A stretch of DNA of 64,000 bases from Nitzschia sp. DOCU1 (lineage: Eukaryota > Bacillariophyta > Bacillariophyceae > Bacillariales > Bacillariaceae), in NCBI GenBank assembly GCA_951394045.1, contig OX595998.1, forward strand, positions 806,001-870,000. The letters are read 5' to 3'. Shown here in pieces: positions 13,066 through 47,423 of the stretch (position 1 is the first letter of the stretch; every line of letters begins with the position of its first letter). A program made the translations under genes and the position numbers. The notes under the pieces are model-generated. The model did no database searches. It saw only the letters and a program-made list of their open reading frames with translations, and was not told where the DNA came from.

Positions 13066-14037
13066 TTATTTTGTTTGATTCTTGACTCCTTCAATGCGAG
13101 CACGGATCGCATCTTGATCACCCAAATATCGTCCCTGCAAAGGTGCAATGGCACCCTTTTGAGGAATCGGCTTGAGGTTTTCGTCCAATTCATACACCAA
13201 GGGAGTTCCCGTAGGAATGTTCAATTCGGCAATGGTCGCTTCATCAATATTATCCAAATGCTTCACCAAGGCCCTGAGAGAATTTCCGTGAGCCGTAATC
13301 AAGACAGTCTTTCCTTCTTTCAACTGAGGAACGACAGCCTTATTCCAATACGGCAAGACGCGTGTCAGAGTGGTCGCCAGAGATTCTGTGAATTCTTCTG
13401 GAAATTCCGCTCCCGCATATCGTTCATCATTGGCCGGATGATGAGGACTCGACTTGTCGACGACAGGAGGTGGAACATCGTACGAACGACGCCACACCAA
13501 TACTTGATCTTTTCCGTACTTGTCTACGGTTTCTTGCTTGTCCAATCCTTGCAAGGCTCCATAATGACGTTCATTTAATTCCCATGCCTTTTGGACCGGA
13601 ATCCACATACGATCGGATTGTTCCAATACATGCCACAAGGTCCGAATGGCACGTTTCAACAAGGATGTATGCGCAATGTCGGGTTTAATGCCAGCCGCCT
13701 TGATGAGAGTTCCCCCTTCAATGGCTTCCTCGTGTCCCTTTGGACTGAGAGGACAATCGTACCATCCGGTAAACTTATTTTCCAAGTTCCATGTCGATTC
13801 TCCGTGTCGAACCAACACTAGAGTATGCTTGTCGGCGGCTTGGACTGCCAAGAAACTAAAGTAGGCCAAGAAGAAAAGAAAAGGTTAGGAGATGATGGAG
13901 ACCGAGATTCGACGACGCGAACCACGTATCATCGGATACTCTAGCTAGAGCAGACGTTTCGCCTACTGCTGTTCGTACCTTCGACGAAATGCCGATCGCG
14001 AAGCAAGAAGAGTGGAAGCACGGGAAGCAGCAAACAT
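13066..14037 (-). CDS. Phosphoglycerate mutase, cofactor (2,3-BPG)-dependent type, mitochondrial-type presequence
   Basis: Exon 1 is 14037-13979 and exon 2 is 13855-13066; the 123-nt intron (GTACGA...CTTTAG) joins in phase 2, giving 282 residues. The mature part is a canonical d[11 protein letters not shown] with the phosphorylated histidine (His37), [29 protein letters not shown] and the second catalytic histidine in ITAHGNSLR. It interconverts 3- and 2-phosphoglycerate. Exon 1 encodes a Ser/Arg/Ala-rich amphipathic leader ([19 protein letters not shown]) of mitochondrial type. This agrees with the known location of lower glycolysis in diatom mitochondria. Without the intron the protein would lack the leader, so the splice decides the location. 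Length minus leader equals the family norm (about 250). Confidence 0.93.
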
Positions 14038-14545: not shown

Positions 14546-16426
14546 ATGTCGAGGGTCGTCTTGGATGACGATCCTCACAATGATTATTTCGTGTCATCAT
14601 CATCAACAACACCCCTGCAACCTCCAAATTTATCGTCTCATTGGTTAGCCTTGAATCATCAACCCGGCGATGAACTCATTCCTGATTTGGAAGGCCTCTT
14701 GGTGGCCTTTCGGTCAGATCTGATTGACAATACAGACTGGGGTCGCACAATAGCTCTATGGAGTTGTGTGGCAGGTTATGCCGAAGCTTTGGCGACGCAT
14801 AAAATTCAACGCTACCACATGTTTCCCCTTCCCTTTGAAGCTCTGGAACGCTTAGTAGAAGACGAATTTGTGGCCAAAATCAAAAATATCGTTATGCCGC
14901 CAACGCAACAACAACAACATCCACATCGAACAACCGTTCAATCTATATCCAACCTGATCTGGTCCACGACACTTAGCAAACCCCATATCCGAGATGAACT
15001 ACATGCCAATTCCGTCTATGTATGGTTACGAGGACAATTGGATCGTAAAAGTTTGGATTGTTTGGGGGCGGCCGTGACGACGATTGCCGGTTGTCGTGTG
15101 TTGGGTTTGACAAGTCAATTAACCTTGTCCGAAGATCATGCCTATGAACGACACGTCGTCAACAATAACCAAGTAGGAACTTGTGAAGTGGCAGTACCGG
15201 GTACCACCAAGGCGGCGCAAGCCAAACGTGGTCAAGAAATTGCTTCCACCTTTACTACCAAAGACGCTACAATAACGCCAGAAACATCTTGGTTATACAT
15301 GGCATTGAATCCTGTCGTTTGTGATACTTTGGGTATGACGTTAGTGGCATTGGTGGCCAATATGAATTGTGTCATTGACAAGACTTCTGCCAGCATTTCC
15401 TTGGCCAGTCGACAATTGTATGAAACGAAACGTGAATTGCTATGGATTTTACATGATGCTGGTCACATGTCCAAATTTCCGTTTGGCTTACTGGAATTGG
15501 GAGATTGTGAAGAACATTGTCCCTCTCCACGATCTTTAGAGTACGTCAACGTGCCAACCATTCCAGAACCTATTTTAACGATTGAAAAGTTGTATTGGGA
15601 CGCCATTCAAATCAACAAGACTCTCTACAATGAAGCTCAAGTATATCCCTACCTTTGTAAGTTTTTGGAGAATGAGTATTCTGTGTGGGGCAAAACTTGA
15701 CCTGCTTGCGTTCGTGGTGGGTTGTTCATTGCTCTGTTGCTGTTTCTTTGTCTTGATTTATTAGACGCGGGTCACTATCACAAAGATGCTGGAAATCTTG
15801 GGCCGGATCATGAATATCGATTGGTGCATGCCATGAAATACTATGCAGATGCCGCACGAGTCGCTAGCCAATATCATTATGAAGTAGGCACGGTACAACT
15901 CAACAAACACATGAGTGTCGTGGCCATGCTTATTGCCCAAGATATACTCTGCATAACAAATACTACAACGAAATGTCAAAAAAATAAAAAAGTTGGAAGC
16001 ATCACCCAGCAACCACAACACGATGTAGCACGCGAATGGATTCAACGCGAGAATGCTCTAGCTACCGGGACCTGGCTATTGGGCTTTTTTGATTCGTTGC
16101 TGTATTGGGAAGAAGTATCCTCCAATGGAAAGCAATTTGTCGAAATCTTGTCGCCGACTCACAAGTATGGCATTGGTAAACTCTTTCAATTACTTTCTCA
16201 AGATGTTCGAGCGGAAATTGTGACTATAGCGACCAACGGCATGGAACTGAAAAACGAAAATAAACTATTGCCAGAGTTGTTTTGCCAGGTTCGTGCCAAA
16301 CGATTCTCCTCGGGGAGTTTGCTTTTGCGGGCATTGCAAAAAACCAAAGTTTCAATCAGCGAGATGGAACTTGCTATAATATCAATGCAAGACGAGAATG
16401 GACGATCCAAGAGGATACGAAGATAG
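14546..16426 (+). CDS. Menin (MEN1) homologue
   Basis: Exon 1 is 14546-15656 and exon 2 is 15765-16426; the 108-nt intron (GTAAGT...TTATTAG) joins in phase 1 inside the conserved YPYL-YAGHY block. The spliced protein has 590 residues against 610-615 in human menin. Colinear menin blocks include VSDVIW-like ISNLIW, LDCLGAAVTTIAGCRVLGL (170-188), LTLSEDHAY (192-200), KRGQE, ETSWLY, LLWILHDAGHMSKFPFG (against LLWLLYDLGHLERYPMA), YPYLYAGHY (against YPYMYLAGYH), YYADAARVASQY and FFDSLLYWEE. In animals menin scaffolds MLL/COMPASS histone methylation and JunD; the role here is inferred to be nuclear but is unknown. The long basic C-terminal insertion of human menin is replaced by a short KRIRR end. 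Confidence 0.88.
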
Positions 16427-16624: not shown

Positions 16625-17446
16625 TTACCTGATCATCAACGACGGTAGATTTTGAATATTCTTCAAAGCTTCCTTCGTATCTGGATGATCTCCACCCAGG
16701 GTAACAGCATAAATCGCAAGAGCATTTCCGTATTCGACCACTGCCTTCTTGAGTTCTCCCTGTCTTGCCAGACTGTTTCCAATCTTCCCGTAAATATCTC
16801 CAGTGTCTGGGTGGTGCTTGCCCTGTGGGATCTGCTCGATGATGAGTGCTTTTCGGAACTCGGCAATAGCCATATCGTGATTGCCCTCTTCGGCAAAGTT
16901 GTCTCCATTTCGCTTGTGCTCCAAACTGTTCAGTAAGGTTGTCAGATATTCCTTGGCCTCATTGTCTGACAATCCCTTTGCCTTGAGAACATCGTCAATA
17001 CAACTTATGACATCTTTTGTGTGGTTGTGATCTTTGCCTAGAAGAGCCACCAGAATTCTTAGAGCACTTCGGTACTGACCAACGGCGTCATCATAGTCTC
17101 TCTTTTCTCGTAGCGCGTGACCCACGAAACAATACGTCTTTCCCGTGTCTCGGTGGTCCTTGCCCAATATGGACTCTCGGATGTGCAAACACTTTCGAAA
17201 CTCTGCCAGAGCGGAATCGTTGTCGTGTACCTTGTAGAGCAAGTCAAAACCTCGACTAAACTGAACTTCAGCGATCATCAAACTGACTTGATCAATGGCC
17301 ACATCCTTGCCACACCTGGCCCATAGCTCCTTGAACAAGCCTTCGGCAATGAATCCAATCTGTTCCTTGCTGACTTCCTTCAAAACATTCTCGTTCCAAT
17401 GCTCCTCTGGTCCACCGATTTCCACTCTCTTTTGGGGCTTCGACAT
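16625..17446 (-). CDS. Kinesin-light-chain-like TPR protein
   Basis: The 273-residue product has at least four tetratricopeptide repeats of the kinesin-light-chain/NPHP3 type, each followed by a GKDH/GGDHPDT turn (LGKDHRDTGKTY, LGKDHNHTKD, GKHHPDTGDIYGKIG, GGDHPDTKEAL). Such repeats mediate protein-protein binding; there is no coiled coil for kinesin heavy chain, so the name describes the repeat and not motor function. The first 60 residues are not repeat-like. The start is the ATG at 17446 (MSKPQKRVE); the frame extends upstream only to a TTG. It lies tail to tail with the menin gene, 198 nt apart. Confidence 0.82.
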   Translation of the reverse strand: MSKPQKRVEIGGPEEHWNENVLKEVSKEQIGFIAEGLFKELWARCGKDVAIDQVSLMIAEVQFSRGFDLLYKVHDNDSALAEFRKCLHIRESILGKDHRDTGKTYCFVGHALREKRDYDDAVGQYRSALRILVALLGKDHNHTKDVISCIDDVLKAKGLSDNEAKEYLTTLLNSLEHKRNGDNFAEEGNHDMAIAEFRKALIIEQIPQGKHHPDTGDIYGKIGNSLARQGELKKAVVEYGNALAIYAVTLGGDHPDTKEALKNIQNLPSLMIR

Positions 17447-18742
17447 GATCTTCTTTCTTTTCAATCACTAATACTACTAATCCTATCACCGCCTTGTGCA
17501 ATTCGGATGTGCTAGTAGTTACTCTTGCACCTCTTTTCGTTGAACCGGCAATGGTATTTGCTTCCGATTGCTACCTTCCATCTCCCGACAAATTTTTGGG
17601 ATGCCTCTTTTGGGCTTCATCTCCGTGGTGAATTTTGGTAGGACGAATTCGTCCTCGAAGTGTCCCCCAAATATTTCTATTTAGCTTCCACGCCTAAAAA
17701 TTGTATATGCCGCCGCCCTTGTGACAAAGTTACTTAGATGGATGCGAACGTTCATTACGGTACATAGGACCTTGCACGCAAGGTCGACTTGCTAACACAT
17801 GGATGTCCATTCACATCACTCCGTGCCAAAGTCGAGTTTGTCGATCACTTTACGTGTGAATGAGTGCAGTGGCGCCCATCACACCGAGATGCCGCCGCCG
17901 CGACGACCACGAAACTTTGGTTTCTCCGCCAGCCCAGCACCACCAGCAGAGCCAGTCGTACGAAGAGGAGCTACTAGTATCGTAATACTAAGTACTACTA
18001 AGTAGCGCCGGTAGTAGTACAACAAGAAGGCAGGAGTCGAATACTACTAAGGACGAGTAGTGGCTCCTGGTAGTAGTAGTACTAGCTAGCAGCTAAGAAG
18101 AAAATGACCATGATTGGTGCCCCCTTTTCTCTTTATTCTTGGTGGCGCTTCTTCTGCTTCTTGTTTGTTGTGGCTTGTTCTTGTGCTGACGTTTGGTCGA
18201 CCGGTACTCTACCGTAGTATCAAGAAGAAGGACAATCATACTACTCAACGGCAAGAGGAGTTTTATTGTACTATGGACATACTACTGCTCCAACAATGGA
18301 CGGAAGGGGAATTCATGAAGCTTCTTGTCTGGCGGCTGAACCACACTTCGTCACAAAGGGCGGAGAAATCAGAACGAACAAGTACCGGGTTCGTAGACTC
18401 AACTTTCTCTACCATATTATCTACCATACAAACCGCAGTCGTCTATGTCGGAGGGGTTCGCAAACTGCGCACAAGCATTCATTCGAGTCCAAGTCGTCGA
18501 GAATCAAGAAGACGACGCGTGTTGACCGACCGGATAGCCCGCAGCTACCATTCTCTAGCTAGCTACTGTAACTGTTTCTTGACATGGGTACTGTTTCACT
18601 ATACTGCACACCATAAAGTACTGTGCTGTGTGTTCTAGCTCCTGGTAGTGGAATGTGGGGCAACGTACCGACGGACTTAATTTTAGTACTTACTAGTAGT
18701 GCACAAATGTGTGGTCGACCCTTTTACTACTAGTTAACAAGT
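17447..18742. other. Intergenic, no supported gene
   Basis: About 1.3 kb without a convincing reading frame. It is rich in short TAGTACTAGTAGT-like clusters (for example 17970-18095), which resemble simple-sequence decay. Overlapping frames at 18114-18638 begin at a TTG and have no recognisable protein features. Confidence 0.5.
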
Positions 18743-23559: not shown

Positions 23560-26500
23560 ATGCATGATTATAAGGACGAGTTATCCTATTACAAAGTCTC
23601 TGAAAGGGTAGTTGGAAAACGCAAAAATTGCGGATGTGACGAAGTTTTCGTTTTCCACGAGCAACGCGATGAGGCACGACAAGCGCGCCCATCTACCTAT
23701 ATACCATCCGAGCCGGGCGAGATCTTCGCCTCGTTGGACCAATGCATTAATTACCGTATCGCGGCGGAATCGCACGCGATAACACGCCTGTACAACCGGA
23801 GCTCACCAAAACGCCAGAAAACCGCGCCAGACGAAATTCCGTACTGTTTCGCGCAAATTAACACGCGCTTAGGCAAGGCCAAAGCGGCAGCATTGACGAC
23901 GCTACTAGACACCGGAGCATCACGAGGACTGATCTCCGAGAAGCATGTCAAGAAGCTACGTGTCAGGACAACACCATCGAGAACCACCTTCACGACAGCT
24001 GGAGGTGTCGTCGAGACACACCGCGAAGTGAGAATCCAATTCAAACTTCCGGAATTTCATGCCAATAGGGTGATCGAATGGGTCTTCCAGGTGACATCCG
24101 ACCTTGGCAACTATGACATGATCATAGGCCGAGACCTCCTGAGAGAACTGGGATTCAAGTTCGACTTCAAGACAAGAGAAGTCGAGTGGGACTCGGCGGC
24201 TATCGCAATGAAAATATTTGGCGAGACGCCCGACGAAGACGCTTGGCAGGCTGATGCAGATGGTGGTGCCAAGTCCATTAAACAAATATTAGACGCTAAA
24301 TATGCCCCGGCGGACATTCCACAGAAAATCTCCGAGATGAACCATCTGTCGGAGGAAGATAAATCCGCACTCAAGACGCTTCTTCAGAAACATGAGACAC
24401 TCTTTGATGGCACGCTCGGCACTTGGAAAGGCGAGCCCTATGATATTGAGCTAAAGCCCAATGTCACGCCATATCACGCGAGGCCATATCCAGTGCCGAA
24501 GGCATATGAACAGACGCTACGCGATGAGGTCGATCGCCTCTGCGCAGTCGGCGTACTAAAGAAAGTTAACCGCTCCGAGTGGGCGGCACCGTCGTTCATT
24601 ATCCCTAAGAAGGACAAGACGGTACGTTTCATCAACGACTTTCGCGAACTCAACAAGCGAATTAAGAGGAAGCCATTCCCACTACCAAAGATACAAGAGC
24701 TACTGTTAAAGCTAGAAGGTTTTCAGTACGCTACTAGTTTAGACCTCAACATGGGCTACTACCATGTGGAGCTTAGCCCGAACGCAAAGAAACTTTGCAC
24801 TCTCGTCTTCCCGTGGGGAAAATATGAGATGCAACGACTACCTATGGGACTTAGCAATAGCCCCGATATCTTTCAAGAAAAGATGTCGTCGCTGTTCGCG
24901 GATCTAGAGTACATACGTACGTATATCGATGATCTACTAGTACTTACTAAGGGTAGTTACCTAGACCACCTAGAGAAACTCGACGTGGTACTACAACGTC
25001 TAAAAGACACGGGACTCAAGGTGAACATCAAGAAGTCCTTCTTCGCGAAAGCGGAGCTCGAATACCTTGGCTACTGGATTACCCGTGACGGTATCCAACC
25101 CGTAGCAAACAAAGTGCAAGCAATACAATCCATGCTCGCACCGCGCAATAAAAAGGAACTACGCGCTTTCATCGGTATCGTGAATTATTATCGCGATATG
25201 TGGGTGCGCCGATCGCACATCCTCGCCCCGCTCGCATCACTTACGTCGAAAACGGCTAAGTGGGAGTGGACCGGCGCGCACCAAAATGCATTTGACACGA
25301 TGAAGAAAATAATAAGTAAGGAAGTTCTCCTGACTTACCCGAACTTTCATTTACCGTTCGATATACACACCGACGCGAGCGACATGCAGCTCGGTGAAGT
25401 CATCTCGCAAAACGGTAAGCCAATCGCGTTCTATAGTCGCAAACTCAATCCCGCGCAGACGCGGTACACTACTACCGAGCGCGAACTACTAGCTATTGTA
25501 GAGACACTCAAGGAGTTTCGTACGATTCTCCTAGGTCAACAGATTCGCGTCTACACGGACCACAAGAATCTAACCTACAAAAACTTTAATACTGAACGTG
25601 TTATGCGTTGGCGACTCATCCTCGAAGAGTATGGTCCTGAACTAGTCTACGTTAGAGGTGAGACGAACGTAGTAGCGGACGCTCTTAGTCGACTTGGTAA
25701 GGACGAAAAGCCCTTTACTGAGGCCAACTTCGCAGAGTACTTTGGGGGCGACGAACTACCCGAAAGCGTCTTCCCCCTCACATACAAGTACATTATGCGA
25801 CATCAACGCAAAGATACCGCGCTTCTCCAGAAGGCAGCGTCGGACAGTAGATATAGTGTAAAGGTTTTTCGTGGGGGCGGTAAGAAACGTCCTCTAGTAG
25901 TTAGAGATAGTAAGATAGTTATTCCGCAGTCACTCCAACGCCGATGCGTTGAGTGGTACCACGAGACACTGTGCCATCCGGGTGAGACGCGAACGGAGCA
26001 CACGATTCGGCAGCACTTCTACTGGAAAGGACTGCGAACCGACGTCGTCGACATCTGCAAGAAATGCAGGTTGTGTCAATTAACAAAGCGAAAGACCCTT
26101 AAGTATGGGCACCTGCCAATTAAGGAACCCGAGAGCGAACCCTGGGAAATTCTCTGTGTCGACCTTATAGGCCCTTATACGATTAACCAAGGTAAACGAC
26201 ACAAGGGTAAACAAAAACAACTCGAACTTTGGTGCCTTACCATGATTGACCCGGCAACTGGCTGGTTCGAGATGGTTCGCATACCCAACAAAGAGGCTTT
26301 TAGTATCGCCGAATTAGCCGAAAAGACGTGGTTCACGAGATATCCGTGGCCACAACAGGTTATTTATGACCGCGGTACGGAGTTCATGGGGGAATTCCGG
26401 CGAATGGTCAAGGAAGACTACGGCGTGCTTGCGCGCCCAATCACTGCGAGGAATCCGCAGGCGAATGCAATACTCGAACGAGTACATCAAACTATCGGGA

Positions 26501-26931
26501 ACATGATTCGTACGTTTGAACTGCAGCACTCAGACGATACAGTCGGACTCGATGGAATCCTGGCAGCTGTGATGTTCGCCGTTCGCGCGACATACCACAC
26601 TACGCTACAGGCTACGCCGATGCAACTAGTATTCGGTAGAGATGCTATTCTCAACACCCGCTTCGAAGCTAACTGGAAGCTCATCCGTGAGCGCAAGATG
26701 CAACGCATTGCGAAGAACAATGCGGCAGAAAACAAAACGCGATTACCGTATGAGTATCGCGTAGGCCAACAGATCATGATCAAGCAGGACCAACAACGTA
26801 AGTTTGGTGCTAACCCCTACGATGGTCCGTATCCAGTAGTCGCCGTGAATGACAACGGTACAGTACGTATCCAGAAGGGTGCAGTTACTCAGACCTGGAA
26901 CATTCGTAACATATATCCCTATCATAGTTAA
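23560..26931 (+). CDS. pol: Retrotransposon Pol polyprotein (PR-RT-RNaseH-INT)
   Basis: The 1,123-residue polyprotein contains, in order: an aspartic protease (LLDTGAS, Asp117), a reverse transcriptase with FINDFRELN, SLDLNMGYYHV and the catalytic YIDD (455-458), RNase H (HTDAS Asp605, TTERELLAIV, YTDHKNL, ADALSR) and an integrase with an HHCC zinc-binding region (HETLCHPG...CKKCRLC) and a DDE triad at Asp868, Asp937 and Glu973 (DX35E spacing). The C-terminal GPYPVVAVNDNGTVRI segment is a short integrase tail; no chromodomain is seen. Nothing essential is missing. It starts at an ATG 36 nt after the gag stop and in the same frame, with no other stop between. Confidence 0.96.
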   Translation: MHDYKDELSYYKVSERVVGKRKNCGCDEVFVFHEQRDEARQARPSTYIPSEPGEIFASLDQCINYRIAAESHAITRLYNRSSPKRQKTAPDEIPYCFAQINTRLGKAKAAALTTLLDTGASRGLISEKHVKKLRVRTTPSRTTFTTAGGVVETHREVRIQFKLPEFHANRVIEWVFQVTSDLGNYDMIIGRDLLRELGFKFDFKTREVEWDSAAIAMKIFGETPDEDAWQADADGGAKSIKQILDAKYAPADIPQKISEMNHLSEEDKSALKTLLQKHETLFDGTLGTWKGEPYDIELKPNVTPYHARPYPVPKAYEQTLRDEVDRLCAVGVLKKVNRSEWAAPSFIIPKKDKTVRFINDFRELNKRIKRKPFPLPKIQELLLKLEGFQYATSLDLNMGYYHVELSPNAKKLCTLVFPWGKYEMQRLPMGLSNSPDIFQEKMSSLFADLEYIRTYIDDLLVLTKGSYLDHLEKLDVVLQRLKDTGLKVNIKKSFFAKAELEYLGYWITRDGIQPVANKVQAIQSMLAPRNKKELRAFIGIVNYYRDMWVRRSHILAPLASLTSKTAKWEWTGAHQNAFDTMKKIISKEVLLTYPNFHLPFDIHTDASDMQLGEVISQNGKPIAFYSRKLNPAQTRYTTTERELLAIVETLKEFRTILLGQQIRVYTDHKNLTYKNFNTERVMRWRLILEEYGPELVYVRGETNVVADALSRLGKDEKPFTEANFAEYFGGDELPESVFPLTYKYIMRHQRKDTALLQKAASDSRYSVKVFRGGGKKRPLVVRDSKIVIPQSLQRRCVEWYHETLCHPGETRTEHTIRQHFYWKGLRTDVVDICKKCRLCQLTKRKTLKYGHLPIKEPESEPWEILCVDLIGPYTINQGKRHKGKQKQLELWCLTMIDPATGWFEMVRIPNKEAFSIAELAEKTWFTRYPWPQQVIYDRGTEFMGEFRRMVKEDYGVLARPITARNPQANAILERVHQTIGNMIRTFELQHSDDTVGLDGILAAVMFAVRATYHTTLQATPMQLVFGRDAILNTRFEANWKLIRERKMQRIAKNNAAENKTRLPYEYRVGQQIMIKQDQQRKFGANPYDGPYPVVAVNDNGTVRIQKGAVTQTWNIRNIYPYHS

Positions 26932-42901: not shown

Positions 42902-43580
42902 AGGAAACAAAATGACGCATGAGTTGAGTAGCAGCGGCGGCGATGGCAGCATCATTGTAGGAGTATATCAGTAGCAAAGGCCACAACATGCAATTCGTAG
43001 TGATGCTGGCTGGTGAGCAGGTTGTCAAGTTTAAATGAGGATGTTAGTAAAGTGCATAAATTAAAATACTTGCTCCACAATCGAATGCGTTTACCTTGGT
43101 AACATTGAAGTAGTAATTGAATAATAACTAGCAATCGAATAATAATGCTGCTGCAACCACTGTATAGCGTGAATCAAGGACTTTATACCCATACAGCAGT
43201 GGTAGGAGTGCAGCATCAGTACTCCAGGATTACTTGCAAATGAAGGTTTAAAGGTGAATGGCTTTTTTGTGTTGCGCCATTGTCATCTCCCGATGCTCGA
43301 TGTACGGTCGCATTGGTCACATCCTTCAGTCATGAGTATTGAGTCTTGTTATACACAGTTTGCACCATGTGTATAATTTTCCGACTCACTTTACAGCCCC
43401 AAGCAGAAGAGTGCTTTCACTTCCTGACACCAACTCGGAATCTGGCGCCTCCTTGGAAACGTCACTTACACCATATCCGATTGTCTTGGTGGTTGTTACT
43501 TTCTTTGAAAGCCTTGTCTAGCAAGACGGGTATTGGCAACTGAGGAGCTACTACTGCTGCTGTCTGTGGCTGACGACATC

Positions 43581-46500
43581 ATGGTGGCATCTAACAGCAA
43601 TGAAATTTTGGAAACGACGCCTCTGCTGGCGTCTTCTGCTGCCCCGCCATCCTCTGCATCATCATCTACCACTAATAATGGCCGCCAAGCCTTGTATGAC
43701 TTTTTGGAAGCCAAGACGCCGGCTGGCAAAGTCTATGAACATTTCATCATGGTGTTGATTGTGATCAACGTCTTTGCCTTTATTGTCGGGACCTTGTTTG
43801 TTCCAGAGTACAATCCCGCCGAATGGGCCCAACGAGGCGTTCTGTGTGGCAATGTCTGTGATGCCTTGTGGTTTGGAAATTTCCCTGACAATGGACTCCA
43901 AGTGCTAAACATTGGATCCACTTCCATTTTGGAATTGATTACCATTGCCGTGTTTAGTGTGGAATATGTGTTGCGCTTGTACACGTGCGATTTGGAATCC
44001 ACAAAGTACCAAGGATGGATGGGACGAATTCACTATATACCGACCTTCTTTTCGTTGGTGGATTTAGCGTCGACGGTTCCTTTTTATATTGATTCGTTTG
44101 TACTACGAAATACCGATGTGGCGGGTTCCGCCTTTTTGAGAATGTTTCGCTTACTGCGAATGATGCGAGTCGAAGGCCGATACGATACCGCATTGACCAT
44201 GGTTGATGATGTGTTTGCGGCACAAAAGGGCATTTTGGGAACCGCACTCTTTGTGGGCGTCACGACTTGGATGGCAGTAGCGAGTCTCTACTATTTAGTA
44301 GAACGACGCAATCCCGATATGATATACTGTGGCCATTCGGAGTGCGACGATGACGCAATCGATAAGTCTTTGTGTGTCGTCGACTCTTGGGGACTTGTAG
44401 ACTGTTCGGAAGCAGGATGTCCTGGTACGGAGGATCTACCATATCCGTGCTACAATCTCTATCAATCCATTCCGAGTGCCAGCTACTACACCTTATTGAA
44501 TCTATTTGGAGAATTCCCACTCATTGATCAGCATTCGGTGGGTGGCATGATTGTCGGAACCTTGACAGCGGTGGTAGCCGTTGCGGTCTTTGCCTTGCCA
44601 GCGGGTATCATTGGCAATGGCTTTGAAGAAGAAGTTGAAAAACGGAGGGTTAGTGGGGAGAACGATAATGCCCCCATTGTGGAACGTAGCCTCCGCACTC
44701 CTGGCTTTCAAGGCGACTCGTCGACGCCACGAGGTCAGTGGTATAACTTTTTGCATGCTCAAACACTTCCGGGAGCAGCGGCTTTTGACATTTTCATAAA
44801 CATTTTGGTGGTCGGTACTGCCTTGTCGTTTATGATTGACACTGTGGACGGACTGCCCCTGACGATCAATTCGATCTTCGACGTATTTGAATTTGTGGTG
44901 GTCCTAATCTTTACGATCGAGTACATTCTTAGGGTGTACTCGGCAGCCGAAGATCCCAAGTTCCGGTCTAGTCGATGGGAATACATTACTGGTTTCGTGC
45001 CCGTGGTCGACGTTTTGAGTGTCCTGCCGTATTGGACTCAACTAGCCGTCACGGGGACTATTTGGAGTGCGGTCGGGAGCGCGACTTCGTTTGGGGGCAA
45101 CTTGGTCAAATCTTTGCGACTCTTGCGTATCTTGCGGTTTGAAAAGTACACTCATGCCTTTACGAGCTTTGATGATGTGATTTCTCGTAACCTGGACGTC
45201 CTGGCCGTAACTGCCTTTACCGCCATTTTGTTCTGGGTCTTTTTTGCAGCCTTGCTCTATTTCACAGAACGTGACAATCTCGATCCCGAAATGGCATCCA
45301 ACTACAGCACGGTACCCAACGCCATGTGGGTGACACTCCTTAATCTGTCGGGTGAGTCGCCACTAGCGCAATACTCCATTTGGGGCAAAGTTGCTACTGG
45401 CCTCTTGGGGCTCTTTGCCACGGGCATTTTTGGGATTCCGATTGGAATTTTAGGTGCAGGATTTGAGCAAGTAGTGGTGGAAGAAAACCAAGACAATACC
45501 GAAGAACTCACGTTAGAAGACCGAGCATCAGCTGACGGGCCATCTGCGAGTCAAGAGTCCCATTTGGGAACGTCCTTTGAGCAAACTTGCTACAAATTTG
45601 TCAATGGCATTGGATCTTCAACAGCCCGACGCTTTGAGACAGTCATTTACATCCTCATCTTTACCGCGGTGGGTGTTGGAGTTCTACAAACGGTACACGG
45701 CCACGAGAACGATTTGTCGCAGATTGAATTGGTGACGGTTATTGTCTTCACCATTGAGTACCTTGTGCGCTTCATCGGCATTGGCGCTGACCCTCAGTTT
45801 GCGCCTGGGCGCAATGGATTCATGTCTCGACTACGCTTCATTGTCAGCTTTTATTCCGTGATTGATCTGCTCGCGATCTTGCCGTACTATTTGACGTTGG
45901 CTTTGCCCGGTTCGTTGGTGGACCAGTATGATGAGTATCTGCGCATGGGTCGTATCATTCGTCTTGTCAAGTTGGACAAATACATTCCAAGCATCACCTT
46001 GATTGACGACGTCATCCGACTCAAGTACAATGCGCTGAAGGTGGCCTTCTTTGCCGCCGTTTCACTTTGGATTCTTTTCGCCGCACTCATCTACTTGTTT
46101 GAGTATGATGATACAACCAACGAGATTGATCCCGTTCCCTTGTACGGGTGCGCCGACGAATGCACAATGTATGATCGATTCCAAAACTTTTTTGATAGCA
46201 GTTTCTATACAAGTATTCACATGACTGGTGATTATCCCATTATCACCTACTCTTGGCCGGCAAAATTTGTGAATTTCTTCATGGTTATTTCAGCGGTCGG
46301 TGTAGTATCTATCCCATCGGCGTTGATTGCGAGCGGCTTTGTGGAAATAGTTCAGAGCAAGACAAAAGCGCAGCAAGCAGGCCAGACCGGTGTTCCACCT
46401 GGAGGAATGGCTGGCGATGACTGGTATGAACAGACCTACCGGGAGCTGGAGAATGTTCCACCTCCTCCCTCAAAATGGGGACCCAAGGTGGATGCATGGC

Positions 46501-47423
46501 AAATGGCCGTCAACGAATTCCTCAACGGCAAAGTGGACGAACACGGCCACGCTCATTTTACGTCGTGGTCCAGGGCTTCTCGAATCTTCATCTTCACCGT
46601 GATTATCACCAACATTGCCGCGGTTCTAGCCGAAAGCATTCCCTCGGTCGACAAGGCGATTGGAAATGACCCCGGGAACTTCTTTGACGTCTTTGAAGCA
46701 TTCTCCGTCATGGTGTTTGCGGCCGAGTACATCTGTCGTCTCTTTTGTGCCCCCAAGAATCGAGAAGCGCTCTATTCTTCTCTAATCTACGCCACAACTT
46801 TCTTTGGAATTGTCGACTTTTTGTCGACAGCTCCCTGGTTCGTCGAACAAGCCTTGCTTCTGGGAGGCGCGATTACCGATGGAGATGACAATGCCCGTAT
46901 CTTTCGAATTTTCCGAATCTTTCGAATCTTGCAACTCGAAGACTTTGTGACGGCCTTTAGCAAACTTGACAATGTCTTCCGGGCTTCCAAAGACGTACTC
47001 AAGGCGACTGGATTGCTAGCCCTGATTATTTGGGTAGGCTGTGGTGCCTTGTTTTATATTTTTGAAGAAAACAATCCCAACTGGCGTCAATGCGACGATT
47101 CCATCCCACTTGTCTCCAATGATACCGAGATACCAGGATGTTACGACTTTTCTAGCACGGCTGAATGCAATGCGTACTATCCAGGAATGTGCGACCAAAA
47201 GGTCTTTACCAACATGCCCAATTCGTTGTACTTGACGGCGGTGTTCTTGGGTGGAGAATGGGGCGTGGTGGACTTTACATGGCCTGGACGGTTTGTATGT
47301 TTGTTCTTATGCGTGGTTGGAATTGGACTTTATGCCATCCCGATCGGCGCTCTCTTTGATAGCTTTGGAGCTATCTTGGGAATGGGTGGAGACGACGACG
47401 AAGAGGATGAAGGGGGTGACTAG
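43581..47423 (+). CDS. Four-domain (24-TM) voltage-gated-type cation channel with non-potassium filter
   Basis: One exon encodes 1,280 residues made of four Kv-like six-helix repeats. Each has an S2 ExxxR (EYVLR, EYILR, EYLVR, EYICR), an S3 Asp-Pro pair, and an S4 with Arg/Lys every third residue (R187-R196, K510-R519, R788-K797, R1106-R1115). Each pore loop aligns with Kv loops but has GE (310-311), GE (591-592), GD (883-884) and GE (1225-1226) where TVGYGD would be. S6 keeps a Pro in a PxG/PxA context. The S5-pore loops of repeats I and IV are Cys-rich. A ring of four acids suggests a non-K+ cation pore, perhaps Ca2+ or Na+; this is inference. The N-terminus has an acidic dileucine (ETTPLL). 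The ATG at 43581 is chosen because the frame upstream has only a TTG. Confidence 0.92.
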   Translation: MVASNSNEILETTPLLASSAAPPSSASSSTTNNGRQALYDFLEAKTPAGKVYEHFIMVLIVINVFAFIVGTLFVPEYNPAEWAQRGVLCGNVCDALWFGNFPDNGLQVLNIGSTSILELITIAVFSVEYVLRLYTCDLESTKYQGWMGRIHYIPTFFSLVDLASTVPFYIDSFVLRNTDVAGSAFLRMFRLLRMMRVEGRYDTALTMVDDVFAAQKGILGTALFVGVTTWMAVASLYYLVERRNPDMIYCGHSECDDDAIDKSLCVVDSWGLVDCSEAGCPGTEDLPYPCYNLYQSIPSASYYTLLNLFGEFPLIDQHSVGGMIVGTLTAVVAVAVFALPAGIIGNGFEEEVEKRRVSGENDNAPIVERSLRTPGFQGDSSTPRGQWYNFLHAQTLPGAAAFDIFINILVVGTALSFMIDTVDGLPLTINSIFDVFEFVVVLIFTIEYILRVYSAAEDPKFRSSRWEYITGFVPVVDVLSVLPYWTQLAVTGTIWSAVGSATSFGGNLVKSLRLLRILRFEKYTHAFTSFDDVISRNLDVLAVTAFTAILFWVFFAALLYFTERDNLDPEMASNYSTVPNAMWVTLLNLSGESPLAQYSIWGKVATGLLGLFATGIFGIPIGILGAGFEQVVVEENQDNTEELTLEDRASADGPSASQESHLGTSFEQTCYKFVNGIGSSTARRFETVIYILIFTAVGVGVLQTVHGHENDLSQIELVTVIVFTIEYLVRFIGIGADPQFAPGRNGFMSRLRFIVSFYSVIDLLAILPYYLTLALPGSLVDQYDEYLRMGRIIRLVKLDKYIPSITLIDDVIRLKYNALKVAFFAAVSLWILFAALIYLFEYDDTTNEIDPVPLYGCADECTMYDRFQNFFDSSFYTSIHMTGDYPIITYSWPAKFVNFFMVISAVGVVSIPSALIASGFVEIVQSKTKAQQAGQTGVPPGGMAGDDWYEQTYRELENVPPPPSKWGPKVDAWQMAVNEFLNGKVDEHGHAHFTSWSRASRIFIFTVIITNIAAVLAESIPSVDKAIGNDPGNFFDVFEAFSVMVFAAEYICRLFCAPKNREALYSSLIYATTFFGIVDFLSTAPWFVEQALLLGGAITDGDDNARIFRIFRIFRILQLEDFVTAFSKLDNVFRASKDVLKATGLLALIIWVGCGALFYIFEENNPNWRQCDDSIPLVSNDTEIPGCYDFSSTAECNAYYPGMCDQKVFTNMPNSLYLTAVFLGGEWGVVDFTWPGRFVCLFLCVVGIGLYAIPIGALFDSFGAILGMGGDDDEEDEGGD

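Follow-up and report, generated by a model that had tools for sequence, protein, structure and literature searches.

A menin of the pennate diatom Nitzschia sp. DOCU1 belongs to a diatom-wide lineage with a variant partner-binding pocket

Menin is a human tumour suppressor and a leukaemia drug target, and most accounts treat it as a scaffold for MLL in animals. In the animal complex, as described in part of PMC8022399, Arg12 of MLL1 is held by menin Glu359, Glu363 and Tyr319, and Pro13 lies between Tyr319 and Tyr323; menin inhibitors contact Tyr276, Asn282 and Trp341, and their contacts also include Ser155 and His181. In the open-licence literature we found no paper on protist menin/MEN1 homologues and, by title and abstract start, none on a diatom menin protein; the one match to 'menin' in PMC3145265 belongs to a bacterial species name. 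We describe here a menin gene of Nitzschia sp. DOCU1, contained in a stretch of 64,000 nucleotides (positions 806,001 to 870,000, forward strand, of contig OX595998.1, assembly GCA_951394045.1), hereafter the window. A single menin locus, located exon by exon, exists in the whole genome (52.1 Mb, 63 contigs), and this gene is thus the only menin gene of this pennate diatom, within a diatom-wide menin lineage. Its membership of the family is ordinary; what is new is a diatom-wide variant of the pocket.

Menin (PF05053) was the sole Pfam-A family retrieved at E<=0.001 with the window protein (E 1.2e-42, best stretch residues 106-490), scoring 146.6 bits against a curated cut-off of 23.6, and the thumb domain alone reached 70.8 bits. 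Sequence searches of the PDB returned Nematostella menin (5e-29) and human menin constructs (8.5e-27 to 1.3e-24). In blastp comparisons the protein scored 108 bits to Nematostella menin and 102 bits to mouse menin, excluding a chance match, since the top score among 100 shuffles was 23.5 bits. Compared with animal menin (MEN1; PDB 3re2 from Nematostella, 3u84/3u85 from human), identity is about 26% to the mouse protein over 410 aligned positions, and the diatom side has its own conserved N-terminal stretch. Colinearity extends from the N-terminal helices through the C-terminal block, the thumb, palm and finger parts are all present in a menin fold that spans the whole length, structural alignments extend to model residues 572-590, and the protein ends, as in the family, with a conserved C-terminal block and a basic tail (MAFFT alignment by eye). 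These results confirm a full-length menin in a diatom-type nuclear genome. They also bear out a preliminary description of the locus, made from the letters alone, which had proposed two exons encoding 590 residues, the blocks SEDHA, LLWILHDAGH, YPYLYAGHY and FFDSLLYWEE, near full-length colinearity with animal menin, and a PF05053 profile match and menin fold as checks. It had further held the intron to argue against contamination by a prokaryote; against contamination also speak the 1.9-Mb contig and the fact that the nearest relatives are diatoms; together with the shuffle scores (23.5 versus 108 bits), and with no supporting point found, this refutes contamination or a chance match for practical purposes, leaving it a negligible probability.

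The pocket was compared between 121 diatom-side and 120 animal-side rows, numbered by mouse menin, where the side of a row was assigned from the search that found it, plus the tree. Diatom menins keep L177, D180, H181, A182, Y319 and, mostly, Y323, with Tyr at 319 in 120 of 121 diatom-side and all 120 animal-side rows. Conversely, seven residues of animal menin (W183, Y276, M278, N282, W341, E359 and E363) are replaced. Position 183 is Tyr in 121/121 diatom-side and Trp in 120/120 animal-side rows; position 276 is Phe (119; Ile in 2) versus Tyr (118; Phe in 2); position 278 is Phe (118; Tyr in 3) versus Met (113; Leu in 6, Ile in 1); and position 282 is Glu in all 121 versus Asn (109) or Cys (11). 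Towards the second half of the pocket, where 12 diatom-side rows have gaps, position 341 shows Tyr (85) or Phe (24) versus Trp in all 120 animal rows, position 359 shows Gln (105; others in 4) versus Glu (110, 10 gaps), and position 363 shows His (67), Val (22), Thr (15), Gln (3) or Ser (2) versus Glu (110, 10 gaps). The Glu359 and Glu363 pair of the MLL1/MLL2-menin-LEDGF complex is represented in the window protein by Gln415 and His419, and in a wider set of 161 diatom-side rows Glu occurs at 363 only in P0266, and an acid at 359 in none. Judged from the aligned residues, the diatom pocket retains its aromatic bottom but not its acidic wall, and this difference is clade-wide among diatom menins. 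Because key MLL1 contacts are replaced, the label of MLL/COMPASS scaffold, used in the preliminary description, should not be carried over to diatom menin. With respect to recorded diatom menins (Cylindrotheca closterium, Nitzschia inconspicua, Seminavis robusta, Stephanodiscus triporus and others), the window copy is alike in family, length range, pocket type and triad (see below), and differs in having Leu instead of Phe at 155, and Val at 366; it is otherwise an ordinary member.

Splicing of the two exons (Table 1) yields the 590-amino-acid product, and read-through of the 108-bp intron leads to an in-frame stop. The motif spanning the splice junction, searched as a regular expression, is uninterrupted in 119 of 160 diatom-side relatives, the other 41 including fragments that end before the junction. 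Diatom relatives include transcript models from MMETSP, going by their source names (P0030, P0065, P0075), which indicates that the gene is transcribed in relatives. By eye, P0007, a Cylindrotheca fusiformis model, has unrelated residues exactly at the position of the window intron, as though part of an intron located there had been translated. The basic tail, GRSKRIRR, is a possible nuclear localisation signal, and menin relatives also carry basic tails at the same protein end (MAFFT alignment by eye).

Table 1. Features of the menin locus and its immediate neighbours, in window coordinates; mouse menin residues or positions are given in brackets.
Feature	Position	Strand	Basis or remark
Histidine phosphatase	13066-13869	-	left of menin, opposite strand
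Menin exon 1	14546..15656	+	residues 1-370 plus base 1 of codon 371; self match of 100% on C14
Thumb: transglutaminase/papain-like domain, residues 116-275	14891..15370	+	
Cys172 (mouse/human position 154)	15059..15061	+	first residue of core helix
His198 (position 181)	15137..15139	+	beside strand 2
Glu214 (position 195)	15185..15187	+	beside strand 3
Pocket Phe311 (Y276), Phe313 (M278), Glu317 (N282)	15476..15496	+	alignment to mouse menin
Pocket Tyr367 (Y319), kept	15644..15646	+	alignment to mouse menin
Intron	15657..15764	+	108 bp, GT-AG (GTAAGT...ATTAG), phase 1
Menin exon 2	15765..16426	+	last two bases of codon 371 up to residue 590, then the stop
Pocket Tyr397 (W341)	15842..15844	+	alignment to mouse menin
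Pocket Gln415 (E359), His419 (E363), site of MLL1 Arg12 in animals	15896..15910	+	alignment; contacts from part of PMC8022399
C-terminal block, residues 547-575	16292..16378	+	colinear with animal C-terminal block; MAFFT alignment by eye
Basic C-terminal tail GRSKRIRR	16400..16423	+	read from sequence; possible nuclear localisation signal
Tetratricopeptide-repeat frame, related to TPR_12	16625-17464	-	right of menin, opposite strand

The preliminary description had spoken of a full-length stramenopile copy, and this is not a lone one: a diatom query scored 7997 candidates, of which 157 were relatives at E<=0.001, several of these already labelled menin or Menin in public records. The best 120 of the 157 all belong to PF05053, and every one that carries an organism name comes from a diatom, with centric and pennate forms represented. 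A 296-amino-acid query from the window, which bars full-length candidates over about 518 amino acids, gave 54 matches, all PF05053, with Amphora, Attheya and a Bacillariaceae record as additions; four of them show a name or label and are diatoms or an unnamed 'menin', and this search is blind to distant kin, since known animal menins are not among its matches. The Nematostella query gave 571 matches, and the best 120 of these, where an organism name is visible, are all animals. Among the matches listed, there are only diatom-side and animal-side sequences, with the limit that candidates needed shared words with the query and other lineages may go unseen. Viral or prokaryotic relatives were not confirmed, because the 25 viral and 11 prokaryotic stretches found by pattern all failed in tblastn; these patterns (SEDHAYE, FPF..ELG) are weighted towards diatoms and would miss animal-like forms.

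Comparisons and trees drew on different samples: 107 of the 120 listed relatives (500 amino acids or longer) in one comparison, 18 animal and 108 diatom-side rows in another, 172 of 173 rows in one tree, and 37 hand-picked rows in the IQ-TREE analysis. In the latter, the diatom side forms one side of a branch with support 100/100, and the window menin groups with P0002 (100/97), the nearest named rows being Cylindrotheca and Nitzschia. The sole diatom-side outlier is P0266 (485 amino acids, from a metagenome), which branches outside the other diatom-side rows in the 172-row tree and has animal-like M278, N282, E363 and D366 alongside a diatom-like Y183 and F341. It is possibly another stramenopile or a divergent diatom and, with N282 and E363, may represent an older state of the pocket.

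An early-eukaryote origin and a transfer had both been offered for the gene, and either would fit our data. The best tree attaches the very long diatom branch at the cnidarian/bilaterian split (98/99 and 80/66), where an outgroup would lie, although approximately unbiased (AU) tests reject none of three placements that join diatoms with copepods (p 0.355), vertebrates (p 0.0912) or pancrustaceans (p 0.276), which weighs against a simple claim of deep descent. A transfer, by which the gene would have reached the diatom ancestor from an animal or another eukaryote instead of by shared descent, agrees with these tests and with the lack of any further lineage among the matches listed; however, it sits badly with the outgroup-like position, other lineages may be merely unseen in word-based searches, and, as both centric and pennate diatoms carry menin, it would have to predate their split. 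We regard it as somewhat unlikely; in any case, it concerns the origin of the gene and not its function.

The thumb domain holds a Cys-His-Glu triad (Cys172, His198 and Glu214) that is nearly invariant on the diatom side: Cys in 148/148 readable rows, His in 152/152 and Glu in 153/154, with one Asp in the fragment P0277. In the exon-1 part of alignment A1, 22 of the 39 invariant columns fall within P0002 residues 132-267. In the window domain model, Cys opens the core helix, with His next to strand 2 and Glu next to strand 3, which agrees with the definition of papain/transglutaminase-like domains in part of PMC10318531 (a Cys that begins the core helix and, on the next strands, His and a polar residue). 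The same part of that source places menin in the papain-like superfamily, with human menin lacking the Cys and some members keeping the full triad. Animal-side rows carry at position 154 either Cys (61) or Ser (59 of 120): the named rows with Ser are vertebrates and malacostracan crustaceans, and Cys occurs in cnidarians, insects, ticks, a copepod and a barnacle, a pattern that needs two changes on the 37-row tree, separately in the sampled vertebrates and in malacostracans. A fold search with the domain listed 11 non-menin structures, which are entries of LapG, a LapD-complex entry, geldanamycin amide synthase, transglutaminase 3, TglA and arylamine N-acetyltransferase, all weak matches (Z 5.7-7.3); we take these to be Cys-based transglutaminase/papain-like folds of one superfamily. 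In its model, diatom menin resembles enzymes such as LapG, transglutaminase 3 and arylamine N-acetyltransferase in a core of helix and strands, with Cys, His and acid at like places as far as set out in part of PMC10318531. By sequence, the thumb domain alone matches nothing but Menin, apart from a CBF_beta line at chance level.

We consider it probable that diatom menin acts in the nucleus as a menin-type scaffold whose ligand has changed: its palm pocket would take up a short linear motif of a chromatin protein, unlike the animal MLL1/JUND motif. A different, diatom-wide ligand is suggested by the retained aromatic floor (Y319, mostly Y323, L177, H181, A182), by the change of the Arg12-holding acidic wall to Gln and His/Val/Thr, and by the new residues E282, Y183, F276 and F278, which are fixed on the diatom side. 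Besides the basic tail, the same genome offers a Dpy-30 match and trithorax-like frames (L004 2772-8656) with PWWP, four PHD stretches, a bromodomain and FYRN, followed by a SET frame; the FYRN and SET stretches, which are not in the same reading frame, are probably one gene, and PWWP in the trithorax class is known from plant ATX proteins, as given in part of PMC3457860. An MBD-like start of this gene, suspected by eye, was discarded, as no such Pfam match appeared up to E 10. FYRC was not found in the genome scan, in which no control matched either, and DOT1 gave seven weak matches (best 1.3e-7, one with an internal stop), from which we conclude nothing on H3K79. Several points weigh against the scaffold proposal. 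No ligand turned up; the one trithorax-like gene that was read shows no animal-type FPARP-like menin-binding motif at its start; and W-x-F-P-x-R-P, with 50 matches in the genome versus 22 for the reversed control pattern, gave by eye WKFPARP in only two, both in copies of one retrotransposon protein and therefore taken as coincidence. Likewise, that animals use menin as a scaffold does not mean that diatoms must, and the pocket could be a remnant of an enzyme cleft, or could still serve as one. As an observation apart, the repeated RVT_2 retrotransposon protein (L043 1185-3953 (-), and L042; RVT_2 was found in one copy) has an open frame with RSWKFPARP, which resembles the MLL menin-binding motif.

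That diatom menin is an enzyme, or also an enzyme, whose papain/transglutaminase-like triad still acts on a substrate in the cleft from which the animal MLL pocket would have arisen, would accord with the near-invariance and modelled placement of the triad, with the weak fold matches to enzymes, and with the triad-keeping members mentioned in part of PMC10318531. In addition, the inhibitor contacts Ser155 and His181, taken from part of PMC8022399, flank the triad site, so that pocket and triad would lie side by side; even so, we rate this reading as unlikely. A further proposal is that menin began as a chromatin-bound Cys enzyme of transglutaminase/papain type, that in diatoms the Cys-His-Glu site still works beside a substrate cleft of separate specificity, and that animals turned the cleft into the MLL/JUND pocket, vertebrates and malacostracans then losing the Cys separately; we hold this to be quite unlikely. 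Similarly improbable, if not slightly more so, is an animal-like role, in which menin, by means of compensating changes, would use the same type of motif to link an MLL/trithorax-type histone H3 lysine 4 (H3K4) methyltransferase to chromatin. The trithorax-like frames, FYRN, SET and Dpy-30, together with the kept pocket residues (L177, D180, H181, A182, Y319, mostly Y323), are consistent with it, but Glu359 and Glu363 are replaced in nearly all readable diatom-side rows, the trithorax-like gene start has no FPARP-type motif, and the LEDGF integrase-binding domain had no match in the genome at E<=0.001, in a search where positive controls gave none either. The scaffold with a changed ligand remains our preferred reading.

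Nothing in the genes next to menin points to a joint system with it. Elsewhere, the window contains a retrotransposon frame with aspartic protease, reverse transcriptase, RNase H and integrase domains (23560-26931, +), and a frame of 1296 amino acids with four Ion_trans stretches (43533-47423, +; E 8.2e-73), that is, the architecture of a four-domain voltage-gated channel in a single-celled alga.

A diatom lineage with the same fold and another pocket offers an outside view of menin, in which the fold, the His, the Glu, Tyr319 and the C-terminal block appear as old parts and can be set apart from features specific to MLL binding in animals. As genetic transformation and editing work in diatoms, the role of a menin without the animal MLL motif, as well as any activity of the triad, can be tested directly in them. 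If menin did descend from a Cys enzyme, the pocket targeted by leukaemia drugs would be a retired active site.
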